Below are positions 9,241 to 51,910 of a stretch of DNA of 64,000 bases, piece by piece. The notes below the pieces were generated by a model. It was not told the DNA's origin, did not search any database, and saw only the letters and a program-made list of their open reading frames with translations. Source of the stretch: Halichondria panicea (Eukaryota > Porifera > Demospongiae > Suberitida > Halichondriidae). The stretch covers positions 1,922,001-1,986,000 of the forward strand of contig NC_087382.1 of assembly GCF_963675165.1 (NCBI RefSeq). The letters run 5' to 3'. Both the position numbers and the translations under genes were made by a program. Within the stretch, counting starts at the first letter, position 1, and each line of letters begins with the position of its first letter.

Positions 9241-9784
9241 GCATGTACAGTAGAGCTAGGGACGGTCACACCATAACACATAGATACATAATGCACATGA
9301 TCATCGCTTGTTTTTATGTTTCAACTTCCTCTGCACTGCTTGATAAAACAGTGGTTGAAAAATTATACGCTATACCTATACAAGTGCTAGTGTATTTGGC
9401 CTGAACGTTATGTGACCGCAATAACATCAATGCACTGAATTTGTAGTGATTCAATCGTGCACGCATGTCGGACCTCCTCTGGATGTAGACCAACACCCAC
9501 AAACATTAAAATATGTATTTTATTCGGCCTGGATTTGAGGCTATAGTGCACTATTATTATAAAGCGACTCACTTCACTCCGTAAGTTATCAAACTGATTA
9601 GTCTATATAGATGATTATAGTCTCTACTATAATTATCAAGGTAAGTAATAATCTACTGTTATTATTCTACTATGCTATATATAGCAACAAGTATCAGTTC
9701 TGCTCGGGGGGGGGGGTATGACATCACCTTCGTGCTCTCTTGGCAACTGCAATTAGGATATAATTATACCATGCACACATGCCT
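9241..9784. other. spacer, no gene seen
   Basis: AT-rich DNA downstream of the astacin-Death gene stop. No exon, tRNA-like structure or clear repeat was recognised apart from a short G run near 9706-9717. Confidence 0.4.
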
Positions 9785-10579
9785 CTACTCTATATACATT
9801 TGCATACCTTGTGGTCCATTGGCAATTTTTAAGATGGCGCCCTCAACGTCTGAGCACAGGTTGTCTAGACCCACAGCCTTTGATTCGAGAGCACTCAGGA
9901 AAGTTTCAAGGTAGCAGTTAGAACCGCTTTGAAACCACTTCAGCAGCATTGCACGGAAACAATCTCCAACATCCAAAGGATTGTTTGTCCTAATGGCACT
10001 CAAATCGTCCCCAGACAAACCCAGATTATTACCAATGTTTGACCACTTTCCCCTTCCCCTGTACGCAGCGTCATACAGAGCGTTGAGGTACGGCTTTTCA
10101 GAGGGGGAGAGTTGGACTGTAAAAATGAATACAGGCTTGTATATAATTATATGTACATGTACTTTATTAAGTGTAAGTTTGATGTCATTGTTGCAAGCTT
10201 CCTATACTACCGTATAGCAGGTAATTTTCGGGGGACAAAATATTCGTGGTTCAGCAATATTGAGACATTTCGTGGATAATATTTTCGTGGTTGCCGTGCT
10301 TGGATTGTAAGTAAAGGTAGGCAAGGCCGCTTCATTCGTGGGTAAAATATTCGTGATCAGACCTCCAACCACGAAAACCACGAATATTTTGCCCCACGAA
10401 AATTACCAGCTATACGGTATTAGATCTATACCCATGTAAGTGAGGATAGATGATAAACTTAAATAGCTGTATACATGCAGACTCAGGGTGCAATGTCTTT
10501 TTATGAAAGAAGTCAGCCTCCAATGCAGGAACAGTAGCATAATTATGCCTCGGTGCGCACGGCGCAAGCGAGGTACGGT

Positions 10580-10619
<40 letters not shown>

Positions 10620-13600
10620 TGTGTAGACTGCTACAGCTGCTCAAGGATGAATCAAGTGCAAGTAAGAGTTTCTATAGGCTTCTAGTCATGTTTACTTGGA
10701 TTTTAATTCGTGAATAATGCTTCATTCTCGAGTTATGCCTAGTTTTGCTTACTTGGAATGCCATTGCAGCCTTTTTAGAAGAGCATGTAGCCAAACTTGT
10801 TTACCGAGTGTTGCTAATCTACTTAGTAGTTAGCTCTGCACTAGAACGCTAGCTATTGGTAGCTGCAAGAGTGAGAAGAGAGCTGCAAGGCTCTGCTGAT
10901 GGCAGCCATTAATTTTAGACTTGAACTTTTGGCATCGATCGTTTTAACAACAATCATGGTCGATCATTACCCACTCTCTGAGTTTTTGCAAGCAGCAAAA
11001 TTAAATTGTTTTTATCATGTGCATAAAAGCTATTAGTAGCAGCTTTATGTTATGTAGCTTTGGCATCTCCACCGAGGCATCAGCACCTGCGGTGCTTTCA
11101 TTATCATAGCTATAACTATACCTAAAAAGGGTATTTGTGGTTTTACTATGATGCCCTCGCTCTGGACGAATTATAAGTATACATGTTGTGCAAACCATAA
11201 ATTAGTTGTATAGGCTCATGCATGCAGTTCCTAAGCATTAGGGACTAGAACAATCTTTACCAAGACTGAATATGTTTTGATGGTAAACATAACGTTATTC
11301 CTGTGCACTATAATTAATTGAATCCACTCACTTTGCCCGTAGGAAGGTACAACTCGCTGTGGGACTGAGCCTGATCCAAGTGAGAGCGTAAAAGATATAT
11401 AGACAGATATAAATTATATATATAGCCTTTAGGTAAAGCTTTTACTACTGTATATATAGTACTTACTGTTGTTTGGGGTCGAAGAGGCTGGTGACTCTCC
11501 TCCTAAAATCACAAAATGTAATGCATGAATCATATAAGTGAATGGACACACCGTAAATCTTTTGTAGAAAATCAAGATCTTTCTCTGAAGGCCCATCAGC
11601 ACAACTCCGATGTCTCTTGTGAATCCCTCTCAAAACTGTCTTTGCTTCTTCACTGAGACTTCCATCAGCCTCAACTTTTGATAGAGTCTCGTGCTCCTTC
11701 TTTTTAAGCCAGTTCACATCAAACCTATAGACATAGCACACAATAGTAATAATTATGTATATAGCCGTATATAGTGCAAAATTTTTGAGGCACTGAAATT
11801 TCGTGAAATAGCCTTATAACAGCATTTTAGTGAATAAATTTTGTGAGTTTAACTGCTTATATTGAAAGCCACGCCATTAATCTTTGCACGTAATTAGCAG
11901 ATTTCGTGCATATTCGTGTAGGTGCTAACCCACGAAACGAAAAGAGCGAAAATTAAACCTCTCAAAGATTTCGCTATCACTCCGGAATTGTTACAATTTA
12001 CCAGTAGTGCATGATGCTGTCTGGATCGTATGATGGCGATATTGTTGTGGGACCTTCTGACTGGATTTGCAAAATATCTATGTCAAAATTCACGTTCTTC
12101 ATACGAGAATCCTTTTTCATTTTTTCCACATCCAACAAGCTGTTCGCTACCTTCCAGAAGTCAGAACGCTGGTGCTCGTGGAACAGACCAAGAGCATGGC
12201 CAAACTCATGTATGACAAGATATTTCTGCACTTCGGGTCCTTGACCATTTAGTGAAAGAACCATTGTGGGCTTAGACGTATCTACGACTTTCGTCGCTTG
12301 GCTTCCAACCACGGAACAACATCTACCACCTGTGCGGCCAAACACTGCTTGGATTCAGAATCTTAAAATAGTTAGTATACCTTCTTCAAAGATGACTCTG
12401 ATGTCAGCTGAATCTGGCCTACCCGTCTTCTTAAAGATTGGAATCTTGGGACACTTCTTGGTATTCCAAGCGGCAGCCCAACTAAGGATATTAGTGGTGT
12501 TGAGTACACCATACTCACACTTCCAGTTTTCCTGATCAAGAATTTCGGGATTGAGAAAGTGGACATTCAGGACGTCCTTCCCAGTCCAGATGTTGGAATT
12601 TTGAGCGTAGGCACCAGCTCCTGCCTGGTTAGCATCACTTGAGGCTTTAGCTTTGTTTTTACCCAACGATTCCGTGCAGTATGTCTGTAAATATATACAT
12701 ACAGTAAAGTATGGGCATTTCCAATCAAATGCTTGCTTACAAAAGTTGGTGAAACCAGGGGCTCTTCAGTCGTGCCCAGGGAAACTACTGGAGTTGGCTG
12801 GTCTTGTGTCCTCTGCAATTAAATTACAGTATATACAGTAACTACATATATAGTACAGTAACTATACATATGGTGGTTTAGGGGTAAGGATATAAAGGAG
12901 CGCTATAGCTGCATGGGTCATTTTCTTTTAGCTTCTCAGATATGCAATTTTAGCTCAGCCGTGATTCTAAACTGTACACACCCATCATAATTATCGCCAT
13001 TTATGGAGCATAAAACGCTTTGCGCCCTCTTTCATCTATGATATAGTACCCCTTTCTCCATAAAATCCTGGCTACATCCCTGGCCTCAACACAACAAGGT
13101 AGTAGTTGTAAATTTGGCAGATTTTGATATCAATGCTTCATTGTCAAATAAAAGTGAGCAAAAGCTTGAATCTGCACGTTGGTATGGCCTACACACGGCT
13201 TTGACTCGAGACTGTAGACTCACTAAAACGCCGAGGGTTTGCACTTCAGTGCTCTAGTTGCATGCGAGTAGCTTTATGTTAGGTAGTTTTGACACATCCC
13301 CGAGGCATCAGCTAGCACCCACGATGCTTTCATTTTAGTAGAGATGCTGAGTAAATACAGTCGGACATATACGGTATTCATACAATCTGATCGAGACTTT
13401 CTCGCAAACAACTCAAAGGGGGTGTATATCTTGCTATACTCTACTTGCATCAAAGTCTGCAGTATCTACATGTACAATAACCCCATATGACACATATGTG
13501 TCTAAGTATCAATAGTAATACAAAACCCTGATAGATATAGCATTTGATTTCATACTCACCTTTGGCACTGCATTTATCTTGCATCCATCTTGTACCTCCT

Positions 13601-13793
13601 CGAAACTTGTCAGCTTTTTGTATTCATTAAACCTTTCACTCCATATCTGCAGATGAGAGATGCTGCCTTTGTCGAATGTGTTTTCAACAAGAACTTTAAG
13701 AGTATCAATGCTATTACATTCAGTAATATCAATCTCTTCATTGCTATTTTTGTCCCGGTTATAAACCACTAGAGCAATAGATTTAGCAGCCAT
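9785..13793 (-). CDS. ubiquitin-like / astacin metalloprotease / Death-domain fusion protein
   Basis: Eight exons join in phase: 13560-13793, 12741-12812, 12381-12684, 12002-12344, 11552-11724, 11467-11502, 11332-11370 and 9785-10116, giving about 510 residues. Residues 1-78 look like a ubiquitin-fold domain (inference from strand pattern). A short linker leads to an M12 astacin-type catalytic domain with the zinc site HEFGHALGLFHEH and Met-turn SIMHY. A Ser/Pro-rich linker leads to a C-terminal Death domain (WSNIGNNLGLS motif, then FRAMLLKWFQ). There is no signal peptide, unlike normal secreted astacins, so the protease is probably cytosolic. The start is the first ATG of the ubiquitin-like exon. 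The stop assumes read-through of a possible donor after the Death domain. Intron 3 is only 36 nt and must be removed, because it contains an in-frame stop. Introns 4 and 7 hold MITEs. The role is unknown; proteolysis controlled by a Death-domain complex is one possibility. Confidence 0.85.
10210..10417. mobile_element. TA-flanked MITE, CCGTATAG family (copy 1)
   Basis: Terminal inverted repeats CCGTATAGCAGGTAATTTTCG / CGAAAATTACCAGCTATACGG are flanked by TA on each side (10208-10209 and 10418-10419), as in Tc1/mariner-derived MITEs. The interior is made of ATATTCGTGG-like words. It lies in the last intron of the astacin-Death gene. Confidence 0.8.
10540..11100 (-). mobile_element. MITE-like family A (copy 2, inverted)
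   Basis: Inverted relative to the other long copies and almost full length, from TGCCTCGGTGCGCAC on the left to GGTGCTTTCA on the right, with a TTA/TTA flank (TAA in element orientation). It contains a (GT)n tract near its left end and lies in the last intron of the astacin-Death gene. Confidence 0.65.
11762..11965. mobile_element. degenerate CCGTATA-type element
   Basis: It begins GCCGTATATAGTGCAAAATTTT and contains TTTCGTG and CACGAAACG words on opposite arms, like the TA-flanked MITEs. The right terminus is eroded. It lies in intron 4 of the astacin-Death gene. Confidence 0.4.
12345..12380 (-). other. 36-nt intron of the astacin-Death gene
   Basis: Donor GTATAC, a perfect TACTAAC branch-point word and acceptor CAG lie within 36 nt. 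An alternative AAG acceptor would give 33 nt. Retention would introduce a TGA ten codons later, and removal joins the two halves of the protease domain in phase. Confidence 0.75.
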
Positions 13794-14469: not shown

Positions 14470-14740
14470 CAAGGGCAAAAAAAACCCTTTTACGGCTGAG
14501 TGAGCATAATTATAGATTTACTTGCGCATGCGCATGACTAGGGTAATAGTAACACTTTTACAGCCAAAATAATAATCAACACTAATCATCAACAGCCAAA
14601 ATAATAATCAACACATAAAAATAATCATCAACACTTCATAATTTTCCACCAAAATAATAATCAACACTAATCATCAACAGCCAAAATAATAATCAACACA
14701 TAAATATAATCATCAACACTTCATAATTTTCCACATCCAG
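14470..14740 (+). repeat. copia leader with CAACAC-rich tandem repeats
   Basis: Short repeats of the type AAAATAATAATCAACACTAATCATCAACAG repeat between the LTR and the pol remnant, and again in the second unit at about 17280-17466. A TTGCGCATGCGCA palindrome lies just upstream in both. Confidence 0.8.
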
Positions 14741-14744
14741 GTGC

Positions 14745-16648
14745 TGGAATACCTCTTTGGATACTCACCTCAAAGAAATGGGTTTTATCCAATCCACGAG
14801 TGACCCCTGCATATACATGGATGCAGGCGGAGATGTTTTCTTCATTGGCGTCTATGTGGACGACATTGTTTTGGCAGGACGATCCGATGAAAGAATCAAA
14901 GATGTAAAGGATGCAATCGCCAAGAAATTTGAAATCAAAGACATGCATGGGACAACTTCACTATTTTCTGGGCATGACTGTTATACAAAATGAGACAAAA
15001 AACTCTGTCTGGATTGGTCAGCCAACCTATACCGAAAAACTTTTAGAGAAGTTTGGAATGCAGGACTGTAACCCTGTTGGCACTCCAGTAGATGTCAGCT
15101 CAAAGTTGTTAGCAGCATCAAGTGAAGACGAAGGTATTGATCAACAATTGTACCAGTCTGTAGTTGGAAGCCTAATGTATCTATCTGTGAGTACAAGGCC
15201 GGATATAACGTATGCTCAGGGGCGGATCCAGGATTTAGGGAAGGGGGGTTCTTACTTCTTGGCCGCGCGAAGCGGCGAAATTTTTGGGTTGACCACGCCC
15301 CCTTTTACATGCCACGCCCATTAATTAACCAAATTCCCCTTCAACTTGAAAGAACACAAGGCAAAGCCATTCTCATGCTCTGGGATAGTGATTGCACTTT
15401 CTTCTCTTTCAGGAGAGCACCAATGTCCATTGGCTGATCCTCAGCGGAAGATCTCGTTGCTTGCTTCGATGAACACGGAGGGGTGATGGAGGTGGCTGGT
15501 GGTTCCAGTGGAGAGATAGTTGTGACTGGAGGAAAGATGGTTGTGACTGGAGGAGAGACGTTGATGACTGGAGGAGTGACGATGGTGGCTGGTGGTTCTC
15601 TTGAAGAGGAGACTGGCTGTAGACTTGACGCATCATCTAGATTATTATATTAGTCAATATAATTATTATAGCAATTATAATTAATCTATACAGTGTCTAT
15701 CATTCAGTATGCAGTGCCATGAACTCTCCCTTACCTGAAACTTTACTCCAGGAGTCAATGGAGGGTTGCAATCTAGCCTTTTGTTAGGATTCATGGCCAG
15801 GCTCAATTATCACTGTGACCATGTGGCTGGATGAGTCAATATAGCCAGCCCCACCCTCATATTATGCAGAGAGTACCAGCCCCACCCTCACATTATGCAG
15901 AGAGAACTTTGTACCCTATTGTCATGACAGTATAGTAAGCTAGCCAGGTGTATTAAATATAAAGTATCAACTTAGTGGAAGGGTAGTTCGTACGAACCCA
16001 ACGAACTACCTCTGGATCCGCCACTGATGCTGTATATAGGCAACCTGGCTCGATACACTTCCAAACCAACTAAAGCTCACTGGACAGCACTGAAACGTGT
16101 GCTGCGTTATCTTAAAGGTGCGACACACTATGGTATTCTATACAGTCGGAACAAATCTACTATTTGTGTTGGATACTCTGATTCTGATTGGGCTGGAGAT
16201 GTCAATGACAGAAAGTCCACATCTGGTTACCTGTTTCAAGTAAGTGGAGGAGCAGTTACATGGAAAAGCAACAAACAAAGCTGTGTTGCGCTCTCAACAG
16301 CCGAGGCTGAGTATGTAGCTCTCTCAAGTGCCGCACATGCAAGAGTCAGAAAAATTAAAATTGCTCAGAAAAATTATCGCCGAATTGGGGAGTCCTCAAA
16401 CAACCCCAACTACGATTTATGAAGACAATCAGTTCGCTATTGCAATGACTAAAAACCCACAATTTCACGGGTGTACTAAACATATTGATATTAAATATCA
16501 CTTTACTCGGGGAGCAAGTGAACAAAGAAAATATCGAACTTACATATTGTCCGACAGCTGAAATGGTGGCTGATATGTTTACAAAAGGACTGAGTCGTGA
16601 ACTGTTCTGCAAATTGAGAAAAATGGCAGGAATTGTCGAACCACCCTG
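14745..16648 (+). pseudogene. copia pol remnant 1 (RT end + RNase H), split by an insertion
   Basis: It encodes the end of the reverse transcriptase domain, including the YVDD catalytic motif at about 14850, then the RNase H region (DSDW, STAEAEY, EDNQ motifs). Breaks: a 4-bp duplication at ATGCATG near 14943 shifts the frame, an 810-bp element is inserted at 15217-16026, and another frame change lies near 16350. It reads into the polypurine tract of LTR 2. Not functional. Confidence 0.85.
15217..16026. mobile_element. TIR element CAGGGGCGGATCCAGG, copy 1
   Basis: The ends CAGGGGCGGATCCAGG and TCTGGATCCGCCACTG are inverted repeats, flanked by the direct repeat ATGCT (15212-15216 and 16027-16031). 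It interrupts the copia RNase H region, whose uninterrupted version is present in the second unit, so the insertion is directly visible. Length 810 bp, with no transposase recognised. Confidence 0.85.
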
Positions 16649-16673
16649 AACTAAGTCTATAATTGAGGAGGAG

Positions 16674-17126: not shown

Positions 17127-17465
17127 GAGTAAGATCTACCAGGCCTCATACAAACGATCAAAACTCGATCAGAACTGTATAAAACCGTGCATGGCAAGGG
17201 CAAAAAAACCCTTTTACGGCTGAGTGAGCATAATTATAGATTTACTTGCGCATGCGCATGACTAGGGTAATAGTAACACTTTTACAGCCAAAATAATAAT
17301 CAACACTAATCATCAACAGCCAAAATAATAATCAACACATAAAAATAATCATCAACACTTCATAATTTTCCACTTTTACAGCCAAAATAATAATCAACAC
17401 TAATCATCAACAGCCAAAATAATAATCAACACATAAAAATAATCATCAACACTTCATAATTTTCC

Positions 17466-18549
17466 ACATCCAGGTGCTGGAATACCTCTTTGGATACTCA
17501 CCTCAAAGAAATGGGTTTTATCCAATCCACGAGTGACCCCTGCATATACATGGATGCAGGCGGAGATGTTTTCTTCATTGGCGTCTATGTGGACGACATT
17601 GTTTTGGCAGGACGATCCGATGAAAGAATCAAAGATGTAAAGGATGCAATCGCCAAGAAATTTGAAATCAAAGACATGGGACAACTTCACTATTTTCTGG
17701 GCATGACTGTTATACAAAATGAGACAAAAAACTCTGTCTGGATTGGTCAGCCAACCTATACCGAAAAATTTTTAGAGAAGTTTGGAATGCAGGACTGTAA
17801 CCCTGTTGGCACTCCAGTAGATGTCAGCTCAAAGTTGTTAGCAGCATCAAGTGAAGACGAAGGTATTGATCAACAATTGTACCAGTCTGTAGTTGGAAGC
17901 CTAATGTATCTATCTGTGAGTACAAGGCCGGATATAACGTACGCTGTAGGCAACCTGGCTCGATACACTTCCAAACCAACTAAAGCTCACTGGACAGCAC
18001 TGAAACGTGTGCTGCGTTATCTTAAAGGTGCGACACACTATGGTATTCTATACAGTCGGAACGAATCTACTATTTGTGTTGGATACTCTGATTCTGATTG
18101 GACTGGAGATGTCAATGACAGAAAGTCCACATCTGGTTACCTGTTTCAAGTAAGTGGAGGAGCAGTTACATGGAAAAGCAACAAACAAAGCTGTGTTGCG
18201 CTCTCAACAGCCGAGGCCGAGTATGTAGCTCTCTCAAGTGCCGCACATGCAAGAGTCAGTGTTGCTCAGAAAAATTATCGCCGAATTGGGGAGTCCTCAA
18301 ACAACCCCAACTACGATTTATGAAGACAATCAGTCCGCTATTGCAATGACTAAAAACCCACAATTTCACGGGCGTACTAAACATATTGATATTAAATATC
18401 ACTTTACTCGGGAGCAAGTGAACAAAGGAAATATCGAACTTACATATTGTCCGACAGCTGAAATGGTGGCTGATATGTTTACAAAAGGACTGAGTCGTGA
18501 ACTGTTCTGCAAATTGAGAAAAATGGCAGGAATTGTCGAACCACCCTGA
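17466..18549 (+). pseudogene. copia pol remnant 2 (RT end + RNase H)
   Basis: One open stretch of about 277 residues (17490-18323) carries the YVDD catalytic motif of reverse transcriptase and the DSDW and STAEAEY motifs of RNase H. A frame change near 18262 moves the last ~100 residues into another frame (EDNQ motif, stop at 18547-18549). It closely matches remnant 1 but lacks the 810-bp insertion. Gag, integrase and the first half of reverse transcriptase are absent, so it is not autonomous. Confidence 0.85.
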
Positions 18550-45841: not shown

Positions 45842-48800
45842 ATGTCCACCATTAAAGTCTACATTTTGCTCTCACTGTCTGTGCTGTGTATTACCAATGG
45901 GCAAGGTATGCAACTAGTTCTATATCAAGAGTTCAGTAGGAACTCTTGTAAAACTATCTATATATAGCTCTGTTTTAGCATGCATCAAATCCTTGTGGTC
46001 TGCAGGTCAGAGCTGCCTTGATGGGTTTCCTTCAATCACTGACAACACCTGTACATCATCATCATGCCCCTTTCAGGGGATAAGTAGCTCCCGGCAACTA
46101 CGACTCTTCCCTTCCATGAGGATTACCTGTAATGGGATGCTAGTGGGATTGTCTGTAGCAGGACAGACTCGAAGTGGAGTAGATTATCATATTCTGCAGA
46201 TCTGGAGACCCACTGGCCCCACGTCCAATGACTATGAGAGAATCAGTGAATACACATTCCCAATTGGATGCTTTCAGCTACCTAACAATGTCTGGCGGTG
46301 TACAGTCATCAGTCCATCAATTCATGTTGAGGTGGGAGACATCATTGGAATCAATCTTCCTCGTAACAGAAGGACCGCTGCAGCATTTGAGATGTTCTTC
46401 ACGTCCCCGTCATCTTCTACCAGCTACATACTAAGCAATACATCAGTCTCAACATTTTCAGTACCTGGATCTACTGCTGCCAGTGCTCAACCTGTGCTTA
46501 CTCTGAACATTCAGGAACAAGGTATATATAAATTATGCCTCGAGTTGTACAGTGCTAGATTACCACAAAATTATGAGTTGTTATTATTTGTTGATACCAT
46601 TGTGTAGGTGAATGAAAGCTTCAAATATATTTCCCCAAGTTCTTTAAGGTGAAAATGGGGTCATCATAAAAAATGTAAATGTGTTTCCGGACAAGTTTTT
46701 TCTTCAAAAGTTAGACAGCTTACTCTGTGTAATCACCCTAACCGAAATGGTACTAAAACTAGCACTGCGAAGAATGTCTAGATATGTAAGCAACATCGCA
46801 TTCCCGTTCTATAATTGAACGCTAGGTCGAAAAAAGAGGGCCTGGTATATATATATTATTGCAGGGGTGATAGTGCGCATGCGCTTCATAATTACCCAGA
46901 ATATGGGTAATCGTACTACGAACGTAACTTAGTGAATTATACCTTATATAAACTAGTCCGTTTACTAAGAATAATAATGTTCCGTAATACTTTATCTCTA
47001 TGCATGACTAAGTTCTGGCGCACTATCAATACAAGCAATAGATATATATCAGGCTGTATTTTCCCCCTTCCTGTCTATTAGAAAAAAATTGGCCTGGAAC
47101 CGAGGCTATCAAACCTTTCATAAGATAGCCAAACTATCTAGATGTTGTGACAAAGTTTATGGAAACCATCTCCCTAACCGAACCCACTATAACAATTGTT
47201 TGCTGTTTTATTAATCACATGCACAAACCCACCACTTTGTGTTGGCATGGAGTAGCTTATTCATTCACCTACACATTGGTATCAGCACATTTCTTATACA
47301 ATCATAAGATATTTACATTTACGTACAACTTTGTGGTAATGGATGCACTGTAGTCGCACGAGGGATACGGTGTGTGTGTGTGCATGTGTGTGTCTATTCC
47401 AGCTGCATGTATAACTGCCCAACAGTGGCGTTTCTAGGAAATGAGTAATACACCCGTGCACCAGAAGCCACACCCATTTCCCCTGTGCATAACAACGTTT
47501 TTAAGGTGCAGTCTATCATTAGACGTGCAAAAAGCTTTATCTGAATATAGTGCTGCTCACCGTTTATGAATAGCTATATAGTTTAGCTTTAGGGGTGCTT
47601 GAGCCTATAGCTGGATACGCCACTGGCCCAATGATTGCAATGCCACGAACTAAGAGGCTTCTAGCCACGTTCTCATGGATTTTGATTCGTGGATATGCAA
47701 AATGAGCTTCTTTCACAAGTTAGGCTAATTTGACTCACAGTGAAGGCTGTTGCAGTACTTCTCTTTAGAATCTTTTATAGCATAATCTTGAGCAAAGTAA
47801 AACATATACTGAGAGGCATTAGCACAGCGCAGCTTGCAACATTCATTAAAATTAAGATCCTATGGTGTTCATGCATACAGTTACTGAGACCCCAACTACT
47901 GAGCTGACGACACAGGCCCCAACTACTGATCAGCTGACGACACAGGCCTCAACTACTGAGCTGACAACACAGGTCCCAACTACTGAGCCGACAACACAGG
48001 TCCCAACTACTGAGCTGACAACACAGGCCCCAACTACTGATCAGCTGACAACACAGGTCCCAACTACTGAGCTGACGACACAGGCCCCAACTACTGAGCT
48101 GACGACACAGGTCCCAACTACTCAGCCGACAACACAGGTCCCAACTACTGATCAGCCGACAACACAGGCCGCCCCAACTACTGATCAGCCGACAACACAG
48201 GCCCCAACTACTGATCAGCCGACAACACAGGCCGCCCCAACTACTGATCAGCCGACAACACAGGCCCCAACTACTGAGCCGACAACACAGGCCCCACCTA
48301 CTGATCAGCTACCAACACAGGCCCCAACTACTGATCAGCTGACAACACAGGCCCCAACTACTGATCAGCTGACAACACAGGCCCCAACTACTGAGCTCAC
48401 GACACAGGCCCCAACTACTGAGCTCACGACACAGGCCCCAACTACTGAGCTGACGACACAGGCCTCAACTACTGAGCTGACAACACAGGTCCCAACTACT
48501 GAGCTGACGACACTGGCCTCAACTACTGATCAGCTGACAACACAGGTCCCAACTACTGAGCTGACGACACACACCCCAACTACTGAGCTGACGACACAGG
48601 CCCCAACTACTGAGCTGACGACACAGGTCCCAACTACTGATCAGCTGACAACACAGGCCCCAAGTACTGATCAGTTCACAACACAGGCCCCAAGTACTGA
48701 GCTGACGACACAGGCCCCAACTACTGAGCTGACAACACAGGCCCCAACTACTGAGCTAACGACACAGGCCTCAACTACTGATCAGCTGACAACACAGGCA

Positions 48801-49503
48801 AGTACTGAGCCGACAACACAGGCCTCAACTACTGATCAGCTGACAACACAGGTCCCAACTACTGATCAGCTGACAACACAGGCCCCAACTACTGATCAGC
48901 TGACAACACAGGCCCCAACTACTGAGCCGACTACTCAGTCCACAACACACACTACTGCAGTAGATATTGGGCAACCGACGGCTAGAGGTACAGAGATAGT
49001 TGGTCCGTTGGTTGGTGGTGTGGTTGGTGTGCTACTGTTGGTGCTGATTGTTGCACTGGTGGTTGGTGTGCTACTGTTGGTGCTGATTGTTGCACTGGTG
49101 GTGGGTTTGGTTGTGTATATTCTTACGAGGAGGAGATTCACTAATAAATGGAAACCTGAGATTGTATCTGAACGACATTTTGCAGAGGGCAGTCAGAGAG
49201 GGGTGATCAGTAATGGTATCCACAGCGCTGAGACCGGTGAGTGCATGTGTGTGTTTGATGTGTGCTTGCTTGCAGATATTTTTACCTTTATTCTCTCAAT
49301 ATACAGCCATTATAGGGAAATTTGTGATTGTATGAAGTCGTTTATTTTAACCATGCAGTCATATCCTACTCCCATGCACACACATAGTAGATTATGAAGT
49401 TATTGAGCTCGACTCTATACGACAACCGACGGACAGTATGTTCAAGAATCTATCGTACATGCCCAACACAGATGCATCCATCAACTATGAGGAAGAGCAT
49501 TGA
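45842..49503 (+). CDS. mucin-stalked single-pass receptor 2, tail frameshifted near the contig end
   Basis: Exons 45842-45905, 46006-46521, 47881-49236 and 49400-49503 are collinear with receptor 1 and join in phase. Signal peptide MSTIKVYILLSLSVLCITNG, a diverged ectodomain, a greatly expanded Thr/Pro/Gln stalk of about 36 units, then the membrane segment. The segment contains a 39-bp in-frame duplication (GVLLLVLIVALVV twice), making the hydrophobic stretch about 41 residues. In the tail, one extra T after 49498 relative to receptor 1 creates a TGA at 49501-49503. The downstream sequence (EYTYIDREDIRIL and further tyrosines) stays open in the next frame up to the gap. The intact tail may therefore have been lost, or the indel may be an assembly error at a contig end. 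The stalk suggests heavy O-glycosylation at the cell surface. Confidence 0.7.
47423..47625. mobile_element. 203-bp MITE, CAGTGGCG type
   Basis: Ends CAGTGGCGTTTCTAGG and CTGGATACGCCACTG are flanked by GCCCAA at 47417-47422 and 47626-47631. Located in the intron of receptor 2. Confidence 0.85.
47646..47775 (-). mobile_element. MITE-like family A fragment
   Basis: A diverged inverted piece with GGCTTCTAGCCACGTT, GGATTTTGATTCGTGGAT and GAAGGCTGTTGCAG words corresponding to the middle of family A. Confidence 0.5.
47881..48955 (+). repeat. 27-30-bp coding tandem repeat (mucin stalk)
   Basis: About 36 in-frame units encode PTTELTTQA or PTTDQLTTQA variants. Unit types (TEL, TDQL, TEP, STEL) occur in short homogeneous blocks, as expected from repeated unequal exchange. 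The corresponding part of receptor 1 has about eight units. Confidence 0.95.
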
Positions 49504-49696: not shown

Positions 49697-49896
49697 NNNN
49701 NNNNNNNNNNNNNNNNNNNNNNNNNNNNNNNNNNNNNNNNNNNNNNNNNNNNNNNNNNNNNNNNNNNNNNNNNNNNNNNNNNNNNNNNNNNNNNNNNNNN
49801 NNNNNNNNNNNNNNNNNNNNNNNNNNNNNNNNNNNNNNNNNNNNNNNNNNNNNNNNNNNNNNNNNNNNNNNNNNNNNNNNNNNNNNNNNNNNNNNN
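49697..49896. other. assembly gap of 200 N
   Basis: Exactly 200 Ns, the fixed size many scaffolders use for a join of unknown length. Left of it the receptor 2 tail is cut off. Right of it the sequence starts within a telomere repeat. Confidence 0.99.
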
Positions 49897-51216
49897 CTAA
49901 CCCTAACCCTAACCCTAACCCTAACCCTAACCCTAACCCTAACCCTAACCCTAACCCTAACCCTAACCCTAACCCTAACCCTAACCCTAACCCTAACCCT
50001 AACCCTAACCCTAACCCTAACCCTAACCCTAACCCTAACCCTAACCCTAACCCTAACCCTAACCCTAACCCTAACCCTAACCCTAACCCTAACCCTAACC
50101 CTAACCCTAACCCTAACCCTAACCCTAACCCTAACCCTAACCCTAACCCTAACCCTAACCCTAACCCTAACCCTAACCCTAACCCTAACCCTAACCCTAA
50201 CCCTAACCCTAACCCTAACCCTAACCCTAACCCTAACCCTAACCCTAACCCTAACCCTAACCCTAACCCTAACCCTAACCCTAACCCTAACCCTAACCCT
50301 AACCCTAACCCTAACCCTAACCCTAACCCTAACCCTAACCCTAACCCTAACCCTAACCCTAACCCTAACCCTAACCCTAACCCTAACCCTAACCCTAACC
50401 CTAACCCTAACCCTAACCCTAACCCTAACCCTAACCCTAACCCTAACCCTAACCCTAACCCTAACCCTAACCCTAACCCTAACCCTAACCCTAACCCTAA
50501 CCCTAACCCTAACCCTAACCCTAACCCTAACCCTAACCCTAACCCTAACCCTAACCCTAACCCTAACCCTAACCCTAACCCTAACCCTAACCCTAACCCT
50601 AACCCTAACCCTAACCCTAACCCTAACCCTAACCCTAACCCTAACCCTAACCCTAACCCTAACCCTAACCCTAACCCTAACCCTAACCCTAACCCTAACC
50701 CTAACCCTAACCCTAACCCTAACCCTAACCCTAACCCTAACCCTAACCCTAACCCTAACCCTAACCCTAACCCTAACCCTAACCCTAACCCTAACCCTAA
50801 CCCTAACCCTAACCCTAACCCTAACCCTAACCCTAACCCTAACCCTAACCCTAACCCTAACCCTAACCCTAACCCTAACCCTAACCCTAACCCTAACCCT
50901 AACCCTAACCCTAACCCTAACCCTAACCCTAACCCTAACCCTAACCCTAACCCTAACCCTAACCCTAACCCTAACCCTAACCCTAACCCTAACCCTAACC
51001 CTAACCCTAACCCTAACCCTAACCCTAACCCTAACCCTAACCCTAACCCTAACCCTAACCCTAACCCTAACCCTAACCCTAACCCTAACCCTAACCCTAA
51101 CCCTAACCCTAACCCTAACCCTAACCCTAACCCTAACCCTAACCCTAACCCTAACCCTAACCCTAACCCTAACCCTAACCCTAACCCTAACCCTAACCCT
51201 AACCCTAACCCTAACC
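49897..51216. repeat. telomere repeat array (CCCTAA)n
   Basis: 1,320 bp, about 220 uninterrupted perfect copies of CTAACC/CCCTAA. Read left to right in the C-rich orientation, this is what the left end of a chromosome looks like. The array is perfect, unlike old interstitial telomere sites, which decay. Confidence 0.98.
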
Positions 51217-51910
51217 ACAACTCTAGCTGTTGTTAGAGTACTTAACCACAACTCTAGCTGTTGTTAGAGTACTTAACCACAACTCTAGCTGTTGTTAGAG
51301 TACTTAACCACAACTCTAGCTGTTGTTAGAGTACTTAACCACAACTCTAGCTGTTGTTAGAGTACTTAACCACAACTCTAGCTGTTGTTAGAGTACTTAA
51401 CCACAACTCTAGCTGTTGTTAGAGTACTTAACCACAACTCTAGCTGTTGTTAGAGTACTTAACCACAACTCTAGCTGTTGTTAGAGTACTTAACCACAAC
51501 TCTAGCTGTTGTTAGAGTACTTAACCACAACTCTAGCTGTTGTTAGAGTACTTAACCACAACTCTAGCTGTTGTTAGAGTACTTAACCACAACTCTAGCT
51601 GTTGTTAGAGTACTTAACCACAACTCTAGCTGTTGTTAGAGTACTTAACCACAACTCTAGCTGTTGTTAGAGTACTTAACCACAACTCTAGCTGTTGTTA
51701 GAGTACTTAACCACAACTCTAGCTGTTGTTAGAGTACTTAACCACAACTCTAGCTGTTGTTAGAGTACTTAACCACAACTCTAGCTGTTGTTAGAGTACT
51801 TAACCACAACTCTAGCTGTTGTTAGAGTACTTAACCACAACTCTAGCTGTTGTTAGAGTACTTAACCACAACTCTAGCTGTTGTTAGAGTACTTAACCAC
51901 AACTCTAGCT
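51213..51910. repeat. 31-bp subtelomeric satellite
   Basis: 22 perfect head-to-tail copies plus a partial unit, starting AACCACAACTCTAGCTG. Each unit contains an inverted CTCTA / TAGAG pair that could fold into a small hairpin. The first unit shares AACC with the last telomere repeat, so the transition is seamless. Confidence 0.98.

Follow-up and report, generated by a model that had tools for sequence, protein, structure and literature searches.

A predicted astacin-Death domain fusion protein with a candidate cysteine switch from a large gene family of the sponge Halichondria panicea

We analysed a window of 64,000 nucleotides from Halichondria panicea (contig NC_087382.1, positions 1,922,001 to 1,986,000). 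On its minus strand lies an astacin-Death gene of nine exons (Table 1). The joined product has 503 residues. A 78-residue N-terminal domain and a linker with the motif FTYCTES precede the astacin-type catalytic domain, which is followed by a helical extension, a short linker, the Death domain and a basic tail. An earlier note, made from the DNA sequence alone, had described eight exons. Its outline held, but both the exon 4 start at 12344 and the eight-exon model with a stop at 9785 conflicted with the RefSeq paralogues P0001 and P0002 and were dropped. From the comparison with these paralogues, 12329 is the probable start of exon 4. A splice from exon 8 to exon 9 is likewise probable, and exon 9 replaces the final 23 bases of the earlier exon 8, including the stop.

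Table 1. Features of the analysed window, in window positions (position 1 is the first base of the window).
Feature	Position	Strand	Description
Exon 1	13560..13793	-	First 78 residues of the protein, with a beta-grasp (ubiquitin-like) fold predicted; open frame, GT donor
Exon 2	12741..12812	-	Linker; AG/GT sites, phase 0
Exon 3	12381..12684	-	Linker with candidate switch Cys105 (FTYCTES) and start of catalytic domain
Exon 4	12002..12329	-	Zinc site HEFGHALGLFHEH and Met-turn SIMHY; start moved from 12344
Exon 5	11552..11724	-	Helical extension past the Met-turn
Exon 6	11467..11502	-	Linker
Exon 7	11332..11364	-	Linker; alternative acceptor 6 bases earlier possible (partly by eye)
Exon 8	9808..10116	-	Death domain; Pfam Death 25.5 bits against a cut-off of 22.6; GT donor
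Exon 9	9724..9746	-	Basic tail VAKRARR and stop, newly added; AG acceptor, matches P0002 tail
Copia-type reverse transcriptase frame	14727..16650		By eye, similar letters
Copia-type reverse transcriptase frame	17460..18323		RVT_2, E 1.5e-25
Open frame	47856..49397		Long Thr-rich repeat and hydrophobic stretch, mucin-like surface protein (by eye)
Telomere-type stretch	49697..51910		200 N, then 220 perfect CTAACC telomere-type units (49897-51216), then 31-base tandem array (51212-51910); contig-internal

The window also contains two Copia-type frames, a mucin-like frame and a contig-internal telomere-type stretch (Table 1); the last may be explained by a telomere at which scaffolds were joined, by a misjoin or by a genuine telomere array inside the chromosome.

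The note had read the gene as an astacin protease with a Death domain C-terminal to it and no signal peptide, and had proposed a search with astacin and Death profiles. This reading was largely borne out. The catalytic domain scored 40.3 bits against Pfam PF01400 (Astacin; cut-off 22.5) and contained both the HExxHxxGxxHE zinc site HEFGHALGLFHEHQRSDFW and the Met-turn SIMHY; the ExxRxDRD motif was incomplete, with only its E, R and D retained. The Death domain likewise exceeded its Pfam cut-off and was predicted to fold into six helices. When the predicted structure was compared with known folds, both the astacin and the Death fold were recovered, and all matches to NCBIfam profiles were far below cut-off. 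A signal peptide was absent as judged from hydropathy and upstream stops rather than from SignalP. In one family member, P0012, a hydrophobic stretch may represent a membrane segment.

The protease and the Death domain might instead be two genes, or belong to alternative transcripts, so that the fusion would be a modelling artefact. Intron 7, with a length of 1.2 kb, would suit such a separation, as would P0009, an isoform of the P0007 gene that ends without the Death domain. Transcripts ending before the Death exon, which the note had named as evidence against its reading, do exist for one paralogue (P0009 as compared with P0007). The two domains are joined in the RefSeq models P0001, P0003, P0005, P0006, P0007 and P0010, and several tandem genes keep the same domain order. 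We regard an artefact as highly improbable, and at the level of sequence the fusion is well supported. A literature search by titles and abstract beginnings, with most subscription journals outside its coverage, returned no Death-astacin fusion.

The N-terminus had been called ubiquitin-like. In the model of P0001 this domain showed the order strand-strand-helix-strand-strand-strand, which fits a beta-grasp, at a pLDDT of about 73-80 over residues 21-70. In the first structure model, for which 20 sequences had been loosely aligned, the N-terminus remained unmodelled; the second, calculated from 10 sequences, gave the beta-grasp topology. No Pfam family matched the domain, although sequence tests can miss distant kin, and the best solved chain by sequence reached only E 0.3. 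The absence of residues 1-76 from the list of fold matches is uninformative, since the other domains fill that list. An assignment to the ubiquitin family by sequence was dropped, as nothing was found. The name ubiquitin-like is therefore used here for a predicted topology without a sequence profile match, and the link to ubiquitin-type signalling suggested in the note has this predicted fold as its sole support.

The note treated the gene singly and missed its family. A genome search with exon 4, which encodes the catalytic site, gave 47 matches with an E value of 1e-5 or below, to be counted as exons rather than as proven genes; 34 of them covered nearly the whole exon and two contained a stop. 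More than half (27 of the 47) lie in two clusters: one on C3, with 15 matches in about 100 kb, and one on C1, with 12 matches in about 150 kb. Among the RefSeq paralogues from H. panicea, P0001 showed 64% identity over 98% of the query. Pfam analysis of ten paralogues placed all of them above the Astacin cut-off and four (P0003, P0006, P0007 and P0010) above the Death cut-off; P0001, P0005 and P0012 fell below the latter, and for P0002, P0004 and P0008 no Death match was listed. Two Death stretches were present in P0006, and P0008 gave a weak CARD match. The paralogues combine the protease with Ub-like, Death, SAM-like or Mob1 domains, and P0001 and P0003 repeat the order Ub-like, protease, Death. 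In P0004 (L025, C14:4249241 region) a Ub-like region, the protease, a SAM-like region and a Mob1 domain are found in one RefSeq model.

The domain architecture was surveyed with family HMMs on 20 genome stretches, several of them overlapping, out of about 35 places that had been selected. Sixteen of the 20 stretches had one or more adaptor domains on the same strand; the other four (L011, L019, L023 and L024) had none, and L023 is a piece of the P0006 gene. Ub-like, protease and Death domains followed each other in this order in seven genes (L009, L012, L015, L016, L018, L028 and one in L014). Two genes had the order SAM-like, protease, Death and two the order Ub-like, protease, SAM-like, and further genes carried a Death-like domain at the N-terminus. 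The adaptor HMMs had been built from the query and RefSeq paralogues of the same genome, and the hits in L012, L014, L015, L016, L021, L022 and L025 are partly self-matches. Reversed ORFs, used as a control, gave no hits, and eight canonical astacin loci, only about 3.6 kb long, gave catalytic hits and no adaptor. A protein search at the exon level returned 191 matches; among the 120 listed, 119 were new. Many of these matches were single-exon ORFs, and P0051, P0054, P0059, P0069 and P0073 were divergent and may belong to other species. All full-length relatives that the searches returned are from H. panicea. We concluded that a large gene family in H. panicea is well supported. Death exons as such are abundant in this genome, with at least 148 Pfam matches (150 of 503 candidates scored) and at least 147 matches to the query Death exon (150 of 374 candidates scored).

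A tandem copy of the gene lies at C6:1917627 (L018, C6:1915458-1919845), about 16 kb away and just outside the window. Between the two C6 copies the Death exon shows 1 difference in 309 bases and the remaining exons differ by about 5%, a pattern that suggests gene conversion. The active-site motifs are identical. The gene in the window could be an unexpressed or decaying duplicate within a family that is otherwise as described here. The protein searches, which reach only about 116-889 residues, found no annotated protein for it, and its dN/dS to the tandem copy was about 1.7, as under relaxed constraint, although not significantly above 1 (p 0.15-0.20). Set against this, the aligned exons of both copies contained neither stop nor frameshift and retained their splice sites; 58 random changes would create no stop with a probability of about 0.09. 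In addition, dN/dS was 0.68 to P0001 and 0.64 to P0002. We consider an unexpressed or decaying copy unlikely.

The note also missed the bacterial type of the protease. By sequence as well as by fold, the closest solved structure to the catalytic domain was myroilysin (PDB 5czw, 5gwd and 5zjk). A tree was calculated from 130 rows out of 133 candidates, of which three were lost for coverage; one of the eight canonical loci gave no row. The 13 rows of the sponge family formed one group (100/99). In the best tree all 13 stood with bacterial rows, at 95/80 with three Kangiellaceae rows, and the seven canonical astacins of H. panicea were placed elsewhere on a branch of 2.57. Three columns of the catalytic domain held Cys in 7/7 canonical sponge astacins, and no column held Cys in 60% or more of the 13 family rows. 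Judged by sequence, the protease is nearest to bacterial myroilysin rather than to the ordinary astacins of H. panicea, a placement that is new here.

The family could still be a derived branch of the animal astacins rather than a separate lineage of bacterial type. A single clade of the family and the seven canonical astacins was not rejected by the AU test (p 0.060), the canonical rows sit on a long branch, and the bacterial rows are a biased sample, collected by the patterns HEFGHALG and HEHQRSDF. Astacin gene transfer from animals to bacteria is moreover argued for in the available part of PMC9848320. The best tree separates the family from the canonical rows, myroilysin is nearest by both measures, and a Cys motif, described below, is common to the family and its bacterial relatives; a derived animal branch thus appears somewhat doubtful. 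With an AU p of 0.060, a separate origin of bacterial type is favoured, but not proven.

Death domains, which serve as docking modules in proteins of cell-death and immune signalling, work inside cells. The protein could nevertheless be exported by an unconventional route and act outside the cell like other animal astacins, which are extracellular enzymes according to the available part of PMC9848320. Besides the Death domain, the absent signal peptide and the lack of conserved catalytic-domain cysteines speak against export, which we hold to be very unlikely.

A putative cysteine switch had likewise escaped the note. The aspartate-switch motif of animals, FxGD, occurred in 0/11 family proteins. 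A hydrophobic residue followed by Cys, 25-34 residues ahead of the core Trp, was found in 8 of 10 testable family proteins against 0/10 in a control window, the motif having been defined after the sequences had been inspected. In the bacterial relatives the same motif occurred in 37/74 against 13/74 in the control window, and Cys of any kind showed no excess (44/74 in the tested window against 47/74 in the control window); some upstream bacterial Cys are perhaps lipoprotein cysteines. By eye, 24 first catalytic exons showed a clear motif in 14 cases and an unclear one in four, and in about six it was missing. In one subgroup (L020, L024; P0056, P0060, P0110) the candidate switch Cys is replaced, with QISTRTD for QTYCTDS.

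The cysteine switch of myroilysin is described as proven in the available part of PMC9848320, and in an alignment with myroilysin the Cys of the bacterial protein P0020 falls on its pro-segment Cys. In the first structure model two strand or bridge residues of the linker lie at 102-103, at a pLDDT below 50, and residue 102 of P0001 is the motif Cys. Since the Cys region had a pLDDT below 50 in both structure models, binding of the catalytic zinc by this Cys is put forward only as a hypothesis.

We propose that the gene product would be an intracellular zymogen. The N-terminal beta-grasp and the C-terminal Death domain would dock it into signalling assemblies, and Cys105 in the pro-linker would bind the catalytic zinc and keep the protease latent, in the manner of bacterial myroilysin. 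The protease would become free once the linker is displaced or cut, either upon gathering on a Death-domain platform or in response to a redox or proteolytic trigger. To this adaptor-docked intracellular zymogen under a cysteine switch, taken as a whole, we assign a probability of roughly 0.5. Latency, activation by proximity, location and a function in the immunity or cell death of the sponge are all parts that we infer. The sequence agrees with the note's idea of an intracellular protease recruited through its Death domain: it has a Death fold but no signal peptide, and its family has swappable adaptor domains. In H. panicea under LPS, networks tied to apoptosis and proteases are reported in the available part of PMC8242945, and 128 DEATH genes are reported for the sponge Dysidea avara in that of PMC12909245; the word astacin is absent from the main texts of both.

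More tentatively, and with rather less than even odds, a sponge lineage may have acquired a protease of bacterial type that was secreted and had a cysteine switch; its signal peptide would have been lost, and Death, SAM and beta-grasp domains would have been combined with it by shuffling. The large and fast-evolving family of intracellular zymogens would then constitute a second, metalloprotease-based and caspase-independent form of proteolytic signalling by Death domains, and may represent an immune protease of a kind previously undescribed in animals. In the usual view, proteolysis linked to Death domains in animals is the work of caspases, and animal astacins act outside the cell. If the proposal is true, a protease unrelated to caspases was brought to a platform of the Death-domain type in an early lineage of animals, the cysteine switch of myroilysin can operate in an animal cell, perhaps under redox control, and the family offers a testable system for how signalling platforms gain new effectors.

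Initiator caspases are recruited via Death-fold domains. The logic of recruitment would be the same in the sponge protein, but caspases are cysteine proteases of an unrelated fold. With the animal astacins, as characterised in the available part of PMC9848320, the family has the metzincin zinc site, the Met-turn Tyr and a Pfam Astacin score above cut-off in common, whereas the signal peptide, the FXGDI pro-domain and the conserved cysteines of those enzymes were not found in it. HypZn of Aspergillus niger is astacin-like and also reported to be without a signal peptide (PMC8584677); it is a fungal protein of 285 residues, and the available part of that paper mentions no Death domain. In the bacterial fusions of PMC8195603 a Death-like domain is likewise joined to a peptidase effector, but the peptidase is trypsin-like, and no astacin fusion is mentioned in the available part. 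Myroilysin, a bacterial member of M12A, is secreted and has neither a Death domain nor a beta-grasp, whereas the sponge protein has no signal peptide; the two are nevertheless alike in the HEFGH zinc site and, by way of the P0020 alignment, in a pro-segment Cys before the core, and myroilysin is the best match in both sequence and fold.
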